Shown here in pieces: positions 33,500 through 36,032 of a stretch of 41,355 bases of DNA. Source of the DNA: Pyrinomonadaceae bacterium (GTDB lineage: Bacteria; Acidobacteriota; Blastocatellia; Pyrinomonadales; Pyrinomonadaceae); contig JACCUI010000283.1 in assembly GCA_013811945.1 (NCBI GenBank), positions 1-41,355 on the forward strand. The letters run 5' to 3'. The position numbers and the translations under genes were made by a program. Under the pieces are notes generated by a model, which did no database searches, had not been told where the DNA came from, and worked only from the letters and a program-made list of their open reading frames with translations. Position 1 is the stretch's first letter, and each line of letters begins with the position of its first letter.

Positions 33500-34516
33500 C
33501 TAGGCGGCCTTCGCAGCTCTCGGATACTCTTTTCCCAGGCCTTTCATTAACTCTGCGAATCCGGGTAGATCCAGTGACTGCGGTCCATCGGATAGTGCGC
33601 GTTCCGGACACGGATGCACTTCGATAATCAATCCATCCGCGCCTGCGGCCGCCGCGGCTTTAGACATCGGTGGCACCAGGCTCCGCAAACCTGTTCCATG
33701 CGAGGGATCTGCCAGCACCGGCAGATGAGACAACTCCTTCACCAAAGCGATGGCGGACAAATCCAGTGTGTTTCGGGTAGCTGTTTCGAACGTCTTGATT
33801 CCTCGCTCGCAAAGAACAACATTCGCGTTTCCGCCCGCCAATAGATACTCCGCCGCCAACAGCCACTCTTTGACTGTTGCTGATGGTCCGCGCTTCAGTA
33901 GGATTGGTCTCCCAACGGTGGCGAGCTTTCTGAGGAGCGAGAAGTTCTGCATGTTGCGAGCCCCCACCTGCAACATGTCAGCATACTCCGCCACGATCTC
34001 AACATCCGTTTCGCTCATTACTTCAGTCACGATCGGGAGGCCAGTCTCCGCACTCGCATCTCGCAGGAGATGTAACGCTTCGGCTCCGAGGCCTTGGAAA
34101 TCGTACGGGGACGTCCGGGGTTTGTACGCGCCGCCGCGCAGCAGGTTACCGCCCGCAGCTTTCACCGCCCTGGCCGTGTCCATCAACTGCTCGCCTGATT
34201 CGACGGAGCAGGGACCAGCAATAACGACCAGGTCGCCGCCTCCAATTTTGACCCCGCCGACGTCAACGATCGTGTAACGCTGTCGCAGCTGTCGACTTAC
34301 GAGCTTGAAAGGGTGGGTGATCTGGATCACTTCCTGTACCCCGGGGGCTGCTCGTAGCGCTTCAATTTCTGCTCTGCGGCCGTTGCTGCCGACGGCACCA
34401 ATTACGGTCCTTTCGGCGCCCTGGATGACGTGTGCTTGATAGCCGCATTCTTTGATTCTCTCAATTACGTGGTTGACCTCTTCTTCAGTAGCGATTGTGG
34501 ACATGTTAACGATCAT
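33500..34516 (-). CDS. aroF: 3-deoxy-7-phosphoheptulonate (DAHP) synthase, type I beta
   Basis: First committed enzyme of the shikimate pathway, joining PEP and erythrose-4-phosphate; 338 residues from the ATG at 34516, which overlaps the end of pheA by 11 bp. An N-terminal ferredoxin-like domain (about 1-70; [18 protein letters not shown]) precedes the barrel with [51 protein letters not shown] and DPSHGTG. In Thermotoga the equivalent N-domain binds Tyr and Phe for feedback inhibition. Third gene of the leader-controlled operon. The metal-site Cys, His, Glu and Asp positions appear present. Confidence 0.95.
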
Positions 34517-35156
34517 GATTAATATCCTTTGGTTGCTGGTCTGGAACGTGATTAGTGTCAAACTTTGACTTTTCGATCTGTTGCCCATTCGATTTATCCT
34601 GCCCGGACAGCAGGAGGAATCTCGTGAAATTCTCCGGACGGTCTTCGAGGCCTTCTCTAAGAATCGATCCTCCGTAAACTTCTGCAGCGCGCCTTCCGGC
34701 TATGGCGGCGCGGGTGCGGTCGCCGACCTGGACTATTCGAGCCACGCTTCCGGCGGTGTCTTCCGTTTCGATTCTTCTGATATGGGTATGCGCGGCAAAG
34801 AATCGCCCACATTGTGCGAGGGCCGCTGGGTGAGATTCAACCGCTGAGATCTGTTCGAACACAGCGCCCGAACATCCGATTAGGAGCTGCCGAATCTGTA
34901 TAGCCACTTCCCCGACGATGCCCAACGAGCTTTTGTTAAGCAGGTCGACCGCAGGTTGAATTGCTCCGATGAGGCTGTTTTCCACCGGCACCAGAACGTA
35001 GTCCGCCAGCCCTTCATCAACACTTCTGAAAAGCGCCTCAAAGGTGCGGCGCGGCACGAGCTGGATCTCAGGTCCGAGCAACTTGAGCGCAGCATCCTCG
35101 CTAAACGCTCCTTGCTCGCCTTGAAAAGCTACCCTCTGGGTACGCGAACTGCTCAC
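34506..35156 (-). CDS. pheA: Prephenate dehydratase, lacking an ACT domain
   Basis: Converts prephenate to phenylpyruvate, the phenylalanine branch. Only 216 residues are present. The catalytic PDT domain is complete: [47 protein letters not shown], and ENFTRFLLL with the catalytic Thr-Arg-Phe. It stops about 20 residues later, whereas usual PheA/PDT proteins have a Phe-binding ACT domain of about 80 residues. The last 30 residues are polar and unlike ACT. Start is GTG at 35156, overlapping the aroQ stop by 4 bp (GTGA). Allosteric control by Phe at this enzyme is therefore unlikely. Confidence 0.93.
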
Positions 35157-35518
35157 AGCAAAACCTCGTGTGGCCCGACCAAAGGTGCGAGGGCGTCGCC
35201 TTTAATTGCTACTCTGCTTGCTGCATTGTCTGTTCCCACTCTTTCTTCTTCGCCCACCAACATTTTCGTTTCCATGTCCCTTGACTCGCGGATGATGCGC
35301 CTGAAAATTTTGTTCACGGCGCGCCCGTTGAGCGGGCCGGCGTTGGCGTTTTGAAGATCCCTGAGCACTGCACGCTCACGTTCCGGATCGCAGCAAGGCA
35401 ATCCGGCGGCCCTCTTCAAAGCACCGACCTTCATTGCGAGTCGTGCGCGGCGATTCACGAGTCGCAGTAGCTCTCGGTCGAGCTCGTCTATTTCTGTGCG
35501 CCAGTATTCGATGTTCAT
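35153..35518 (-). CDS. aroQ: Chorismate mutase, AroQ class
   Basis: Rearranges chorismate to prephenate, supplying the next enzyme. A 121-residue, mainly helical protein: EIDELDRELLRLVNRRARLA (with the active-site Arg and the helix-1 pattern of AroQ), VGALKRAAG with the conserved Lys, DPERERAVLRDL, and a last helix IFRRIIRESRDME containing the Glu/Ser region. The C-terminal 35 residues lie beyond the usual 90-residue domain. It is the first structural gene after the leader, starting 292 bp past the leader-peptide stop codon. Confidence 0.9.
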   Translation of the reverse strand: MNIEYWRTEIDELDRELLRLVNRRARLAMKVGALKRAAGLPCCDPERERAVLRDLQNANAGPLNGRAVNKIFRRIIRESRDMETKMLVGEEERVGTDNAASRVAIKGDALAPLVGPHEVLL

Positions 35519-35732: not shown

Positions 35733-35780
35733 AAAAAAAGCCAGCCGCGACTGGTTCCCCTCTGGGAGTCGCGGCTGGCT
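35733..35780 (-). terminator. Intrinsic terminator of the Phe/Tyr attenuator
   Basis: Read on the minus strand: AGCCAGCCGCGACT and AGTCGCGGCTGGCT form a perfect 14-bp GC-rich stem with a 14-base loop, directly followed by seven U. It lies 30 bp after the leader-peptide stop codon and about 215 bp before aroQ, exactly where an attenuator terminator belongs. Confidence 0.9.
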
Positions 35781-35872
35781 CATTTGAAAAGCTTTGATGC
35801 TTAGATATTTCAGGTCTTCAGCACTTCACGCTCACAATTTGCCGGCCCGCTCCTCCCATTGGAGAAGAAGCG
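35781..35872 (-). promoter_or_regulatory. Attenuator pairing segments (stall hairpin and antiterminator)
   Basis: On the minus strand, CTTCTCC over the Phe17-Phe18-Ser19 codons pairs with GGAGGAG across an AATG tetraloop (1:2 hairpin, 35850-35867). The segment GGGAGGAGCGGGCCGGC (35841-35857) can instead pair imperfectly with the terminator's left arm and following CCC, giving an antiterminator. A ribosome stalled at the Phe codons would hide segment 1, favour the antiterminator and allow transcription of aroQ-pheA-aroF. Structures were read by eye, not folded. Confidence 0.75.
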
Positions 35873-35917
35873 GTACGTAAAAGCGAAGTAAGTAAGTGAG
35901 CAAGTGCTATCGATCAT
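35810..35917 (-). CDS. Aromatic-amino-acid operon leader peptide
   Basis: A 35-residue ORF from the ATG at 35917 to a TGA at 35812. Residues 10-18 contain Tyr10, Phe11, Phe13, Tyr15, Phe17 and Phe18, six aromatic residues in nine, and no Trp. The codons lie just before and inside a hairpin that competes with the antiterminator. It plays the role of the pheA or pheST leader peptides of enteric bacteria, though the sequence is unrelated. The Shine-Dalgarno is weak, with only GGAA about 18 bases before the ATG. It lies about 79 bases after the predicted transcription start and before a terminator, with chorismate mutase, prephenate dehydratase and DAHP synthase downstream. Confidence 0.82.
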   Translation of the reverse strand: MIDSTCSLTYFAFTYRFFSNGRSGPANCEREVLKT

Positions 35918-36002
35918 TTGATTTTTCAGTTTCGTTCCAGCACCCGCGCGTGGGGGCCGGATTCTCGTTGAGGTTTCAACGCTCGCATCCGAAGCGAGGC
36001 TT

Positions 36003-36032
36003 ACTATAGGCAGGGAGCGAAAGGAGTGTCAA
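36003..36032 (-). promoter_or_regulatory. Sigma70-type promoter of the aroQ-pheA-aroF operon
   Basis: On the minus strand TTGACA (36032-36027) and TATAGT (36008-36003) are separated by 18 bp. The -35 hexamer is perfect and the -10 has one or two changes from consensus. Transcription would begin near 35996 and run through the leader peptide and attenuator. Confidence 0.75.

Follow-up and report, generated by a model that had tools for sequence, protein, structure and literature searches.

A predicted phenylalanine/tyrosine leader-peptide attenuator upstream of aroQ-pheA-aroF in a Blastocatellia genome and its recurrence among Acidobacteriota

The operon aroQ-pheA-aroF of a Pyrinomonadaceae bacterium is very probably controlled by a ribosome-mediated transcription attenuator of the trp/phe type, which would respond to the supply of charged Phe-tRNA and charged Tyr-tRNA together. 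The putative attenuator lies in a 41,355-nt stretch of DNA (hereafter, the window) from a genome (G000) that is 67% complete and comprises 300 contigs. Its host, termed 'Acidobacteriota-like' in a preliminary description, belongs to the Acidobacteriota, class Blastocatellia, since it shares this class with genomes encoding the FMO bacteriochlorophyll protein FmoA (G045, G049, and G053), which we take to be Chloracidobacterium.

All features of the locus are on the minus strand, in the order leader and terminator, then aroQ-pheA-aroF. Domain matches identified aroQ (35153-35518) as an AroQ-type chorismate mutase (CM_2) and pheA (34506-35156) as a prephenate dehydratase (PDT) without the ACT regulatory domain, while aroF (33500-34588; the start may be 34516) encodes a Bacillus subtilis-like, type-Ibeta DAHP synthase with an FXD (ferredoxin-like) domain. 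In most prephenate dehydratases, Phe feedback is conferred by the ACT domain; the PDT of the window stops approximately 30 residues past the PDT domain. The biochemistry of these genes matches the leader, in that CM_2, PDT, and DAHP synthase make Phe, in keeping with the earlier claim that the regulated genes use or make the amino acids that are sensed. Tyr would also be an operon product, via phenylalanine hydroxylase (PAH) or linked tyrA in relatives. A search of genome contigs with the PDT as query recovered distant PDTs only, close relatives being absent.

The leader is preceded by a promoter, TTGACA-N18-TATAGT (36003-36032), which matches 11 of 12 consensus positions and is thus as near to consensus as initially described. 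Its -10 box is located 85 nt upstream of the ATG of a 35-codon open reading frame (MIDSTCSLTYFAFTYRFFSNGRSGPANCEREVLKT; ATG 35917 to TGA 35810), such that the transcript would not be leaderless, and no Shine-Dalgarno sequence is visible ahead of the ATG. Tyr or Phe occupies codons 10, 11, 13, 15, 17, and 18 (35864-35890), exactly the positions that had been reported. Segment 1 (CCGCUUCUUCU, 35863-35873) overlaps the Tyr15-Phe18 codons and, in the minimum free energy (MFE) fold, forms a hairpin with GGGAGGAGCGG (35857-35847), so that the hairpin proposed across the sensing codons was recovered. Segment 2 (GGGAGGAGCGGGCCGGC, 35841-35857) pairs either with segment 1, as an anti-antiterminator, or with segment 3 (35764-35780), as an antiterminator, the latter segment consisting of the 5′ arm of the terminator (35780-35767) plus a CCC used in the antiterminator. 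The third of these mutually exclusive pairings, 3:4, is an intrinsic terminator (35733-35780; -34 kcal/mol) with 14 perfect pairs, a 14-nt loop, and seven U, its stem-loop being AGCCAGCCGCGACT-14 nt-AGTCGCGGCTGGCT (35780-35739), followed by U. Both the perfect 14-bp stem and the seven U had been described, and these stand apart from the small correction that the first U pairs within the stem.

The alternative pairing with the left arm of the terminator, likewise proposed beforehand, held up well: the duplex 35857-35841 : 35779-35764 reached -26.6 kcal/mol versus -16.9 kcal/mol in shuffles, none of 200 being as good. Across 35917 to 35733, the stretch that had been suggested for folding, the leader gave a more favorable structure than any of 200 shuffles (z = -5.5). 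The MFE fold also contains an outer stem around hairpin 1:2 (35820-35908), in which the start of the reading frame (AGCACUUGCUCAC, 35908-35896) pairs with its end, GUGAGC at 35835-35830 and AGUGCU at 35825-35820; letters complementary for this stem were also found in three further loci (L002-L004). Codons 10-18 overlap segment 1, and segment 2 begins 3 nt past codon 19, a spacing that would allow a stalled ribosome to mask segment 1 and free segment 2. Spacing between sensing codons and segments was similar at other loci.

We also considered whether the terminator is a dispersed repeat, which was ruled out by its single copy in the genome. Separately, the terminator starts 263 nt upstream of aroQ in the window, as compared to 115-120 nt in the closest relatives, with approximately 145 extra bp (35700-35560) between terminator and aroQ. 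Inverted CCGCAGATTACGCGGATTT / AAATCTGTAATCTGCGG near the ends of this extra region gives it the look of a small inserted repeat element, and a similar motif was present upstream of the leader in L008.

Under the attenuation model, the ribosome would pass through the Phe/Tyr codons when both charged tRNAs are plentiful; segment 2 would then be covered or folded back on segment 1, segment 3 would pair with segment 4, and RNA polymerase would stop ahead of aroQ. When either Phe-tRNA or Tyr-tRNA is short, the ribosome would stall at codons 10-18 and cover segment 1, segment 2 would pair with the 5′ arm of the terminator, and transcription would enter the operon. Translation of the leader reading frame, stalling at uncharged tRNA, and the change in read-through are what we infer from the arrangement of these elements.

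To place the leader in a comparative setting, PDT loci were gathered from the family (119 genomes, 68 with PDT), and from the class and phylum (119 genomes), and the DNA upstream of PDT was scanned for a terminator preceded by a small reading frame with a high density of Phe/Tyr. A strict filter (6 or more Phe/Tyr within 10 residues, plus reading frame and terminator) was passed by 41 of 162 PDT loci, as against 0/162 on the reverse-complement strand and one on reversed sequence, and Phe/Tyr ranked first among the 190 amino-acid pairs in the same scan. Nine loci were added by a looser scan (L007, L019, L020, L024, L027, L028, L040, L059, and L113), with which every sampled member of families f2 and f6 has such a leader. 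Outside the class, leaders were found in two f22 members and in f27 and f21, the last two with mostly Phe-only leaders. Phe/Tyr codons totaled 385 in the leader frame versus 115 and 123 in the other frames at loci that had been chosen on the leader frame, such that the strand, reversed-sequence, and pair-rank comparisons are the unbiased control.

In the window's own clade, the promoter (TTGACA-N17/18-TATAGT) recurred in 12 leader loci, and the leader core YFAFTYR together with the terminator recurred across the genus and in neighboring genera. A lack of conserved aromatic codons or stems in related leaders had been named as grounds for refutation, and the comparison gave the opposite result: clustered Phe/Tyr codons, antiterminator, and terminator were kept in all 30 family operons with the same short PDT. 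Other families had the same design in unrelated sequences, and the peptides of different clades had Phe/Tyr density and geometry in common and nothing else (e.g., MKTLSFTFGFFWFYFGKTAEG and MFVDDRSRFYFYFYFPPSRG), the Phe/Tyr codons being in frame in each. The pN/pS of the leader reading frame was 0.60, without a strong dN/dS signal because F and Y interchange among the replacements. This value and the frame-specific Phe/Tyr enrichment both lean toward the leader reading frame being translated.

Several individual loci departed from this pattern. In L006, the same promoter was directly upstream of aroQ, with neither leader nor terminator, an apparent clean loss of the attenuator. L015 retained a leader remnant (FYCYFAFIYRFSFGEG) with a terminator roughly 600-770 nt upstream of pheA; no in-frame ATG, GTG, or TTG follows the preceding stop, pointing either to an attenuator in decay or to translation from an unusual start codon. 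A candidate aromatic-rich leader (GFYFTYYYIF) with a terminator was also seen upstream of PDT in an Anaerolineae MAG of the Chloroflexota (L031, WFQU01000105.1). Further, PDT was not detectable in 28 of 69 good-quality family genomes (G003, G011, G014, G017, and others), with HisG also missing from G003 and G017, a pattern suggesting either that auxotrophy for Phe (and His) is widespread or that an unknown route exists.

The switch itself was compared across loci. The complement of the terminator 5′ arm started 29-51 nt past the start of the Phe/Tyr stretch in most loci. Antiterminator duplexes had a median z of -2.0 relative to shuffles, with p ≤ 0.05 in 31 of 52 loci, and in several (L009, L086, and L025) they were no stronger than the shuffles. 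Stems varied little in the window's own clade, which limited covariation there. In a second clade of the family (L029 and L076-L095), segment 2, the terminator 5′ arm, and the 3′ arm changed together, as the triplets ACGGCT/AGCCGT/ACGGCT, GCGGCT/AGCCGC/GCGGCT, GCGGCC/GGCCGC/GCGGCC, and ACGGCC/GGCCGT/ACGGCC. This three-way covariation left 2:3 paired in 95.5% and 3:4 in 100% of cases. Double-changed cells numbered 7 (2:3) and 9 (3:4) and none of 500 shuffles was as high, figures that are not probabilities because they rest on hand-placed hexamers in related sequences; the safer yardstick is provided by slid pairings, which were paired in 18-38% (2:3) and 18-67% (3:4).

With the leader masked as by a stalled ribosome, the antiterminator pairing predicted for a transcript that has yet to reach segment 4 rose from 0.44 to 0.59, with 17 loci clearly up and one down. 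At equilibrium, the finished terminator won in nearly all loci regardless of masking, so that the switch would have to be kinetic, as in known attenuators. This modeled preference would be expected of a kinetic switch and is not proof of one.

The best explanation for a leader that mixes Phe with Tyr is that the operon supplies both amino acids. Among the 22 family genomes searched, tyrA (prephenate/arogenate dehydrogenase, PF02153) was above the curated cut-off in five and PAH was present in 18. Genomes without tyrA but with PAH and a Phe/Tyr leader included G012, G088, G035, G063, G101, and G112, all 94-100% complete. PAH is an accepted route to Tyr in bacteria lacking tyrA (PMC7311316), and most family genomes probably make Tyr from Phe. 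Where tyrA adjoins pheA (G132, G133, G081, and G039), it lies inside the attenuated operon and the leader also has Tyr; in 14 tyrA loci, we found no separate attenuator directly before tyrA. The connection is a tendency, since f6 and f22 have Tyr-rich Phe/Tyr leaders although tyrA sits elsewhere; here, the feeding of Tyr synthesis by chorismate mutase and DAHP synthase may suffice. Because the window's genome is incomplete, absence of tyrA or PAH from it means little.

These distributions bear on whether the same attenuator might instead sense essentially Phe alone, with Tyr codons as tolerated filler. Phe is the committed product of the operon, and leaders with F only do exist in f27 and f21, but those genomes mostly have tyrA, whereas genomes of the family with Phe/Tyr leaders are mostly tyrA-less with PAH. 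Given further that Tyr codons are in nearly all Blastocatellia leaders, and in the leaders of the four genomes in which tyrA adjoins pheA, we consider sensing of Phe alone to be unlikely.

The peptide comparisons address a different possibility, namely that free Phe or Tyr arrests the ribosome on the nascent leader peptide, in the manner of TnaC, with the aromatics acting in the exit tunnel and not through A-site codons. Conservation of the YFAFTYR core at the peptide level in the window's clade would agree with such arrest. However, sister-clade leaders maintain Phe/Tyr density without a common peptide motif, and the free exchange of Tyr and Phe suits codon counting, making arrest by the nascent peptide highly improbable. 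We give even less credence to an attenuator sensed by RNA or protein alone (a riboswitch, T-box, or RNA-binding repressor) to which the reading frame is incidental. The strong structure of the leader and its outer stem are features that such a device could have, but the Rfam scan returned no family at the gathering threshold in the window and, for the leader itself, neither a T-box nor an amino-acid leader among hits at E ≤ 10, the Phe/Tyr enrichment is specific to frame and strand, and the clades are without common RNA sequence. Finally, short reading frames and promoter-like sites are common (1.8 promoters expected in 3.5 kb), but an accidental meeting of promoter, small reading frame, and terminator can be set aside almost entirely, being refuted by conservation in relatives and by the 0/162 controls.

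Attenuation by Phe and Tyr codons also showed a pattern with respect to the ACT domain, which was called from length together with the ESRP motif, Pfam being applied to the window alone. The attenuator was present in all 30 family operons with an ACT-less PDT, as compared to 9 of 34 with an ACT-bearing PDT (25 without), a difference that goes back to few independent events, the tree placing approximately two ACT losses and several attenuator losses in the family. One locus cut by its contig (L060) was assigned to the ACT-bearing group on account of its ESRP motif. A statistical link between attenuator and ACT loss across independent events was explored and dropped, as independent pairs gave no significance. 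Additionally, a leader was not found near pheA for three Chloracidobacterium-type PDTs lacking ACT. We regard the association as a pattern and not as a law.

Leaders of related design were present upstream of other operons in the class. Trp-rich leaders with terminators occurred upstream of trpE in 8 of 39 class loci (L239-L242, L245, L232, L284, and L286), including those of Chloracidobacterium-type genomes (MHVRSFTFSGYWYWWSLNGK...), where they are rich in Phe, Tyr, and Trp. His-rich leaders (MQLSSLNIHLHHHHHVHHTRVM) occurred upstream of hisG in 2 of 35 class loci, L247 and L259, again with terminators (e.g., MKFFAGNQIHHHHHAEHRVN). The reverse strand yielded none in either case, and in the window's own genome neither trpE nor hisG showed such a leader. 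These Trp- and His-rich leaders suggest that several amino acids are under leader-peptide attenuation in the class. Among relatives of the window, five loci (L008, L009, L011, L012, and L013) have only 10-11 nt between the end of the -10 box and the leader ATG, so that their transcripts should begin at the ATG or no more than a few nt away from it. Such a start is not new in kind, since trpL of Sinorhizobium meliloti is leaderless (PMC7298713).

Taken together, we tentatively propose a broader scenario, which may be right but which we rate somewhat short of probable. Attenuation would have become what chiefly controls the pheA branch in this family, with two inputs because Tyr comes from Phe hydroxylation, and PDT would then be free to lose ACT; attenuation would be general in the class, with Trp and His leaders as well, and in some species would start on leaderless mRNA.

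In the literature searched, attenuators in Acidobacteriota had almost no assigned function (PMC2965389), leader genes in Acidobacteria were treated for reinitiation distance only (PMC4833913), and no earlier description linked attenuation and a leader peptide to an amino-acid operon in Acidobacteria. The preliminary impression that such a leader is undescribed in the phylum is consistent with that literature, outside of which lies the 2010 survey of Lopatovskaya, which may list cases. The mechanism itself is a classical one, and the novelty lies in the phylum, the dual Phe/Tyr input, and the scale. Attenuation here would represent a widespread and repeatedly re-sequenced form of regulation in a phylum that is among the most common in soil. 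It offers natural evidence on how switches evolve, with codon content and geometry retained through complete changes of peptides and stems. Two ideas also become testable, namely that leader codon content tracks pathway topology (Phe plus Tyr where Tyr derives from Phe) and that attenuation can act as a stand-in for allosteric feedback.

Leader-peptide attenuation is textbook biology, known mainly from Proteobacteria and from some Actinobacteria and Firmicutes. The enterobacterial pheA attenuator, with its Phe-only leader PheL, resembles that of the window in having a Phe-rich leader reading frame, exclusive 1:2, 2:3, and 3:4 pairings, and a terminator before pheA. The attenuator of the window differs in that it mixes Phe with Tyr and matches no Rfam model, and its operon begins with a separate aroQ, has an ACT-less PDT, and includes DAHP synthase. 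The Escherichia coli pheST attenuator similarly pairs an aromatic leader peptide, PheM, with an attenuator, but controls phenylalanyl-tRNA synthetase and not biosynthesis. The trpLE(G) attenuator of S. meliloti (PMC7298713) is likewise ribosome-dependent and has its 5′ end at the leader ATG, as predicted for five relatives of the window; unlike the window, which is not itself leaderless, it senses Trp and belongs to the Alphaproteobacteria. Lastly, leader-peptide attenuators of Actinobacteria and Firmicutes (PMC1262725 and PMC2965389) follow the same principle outside of the Proteobacteria, in other phyla and mostly for other amino acids.
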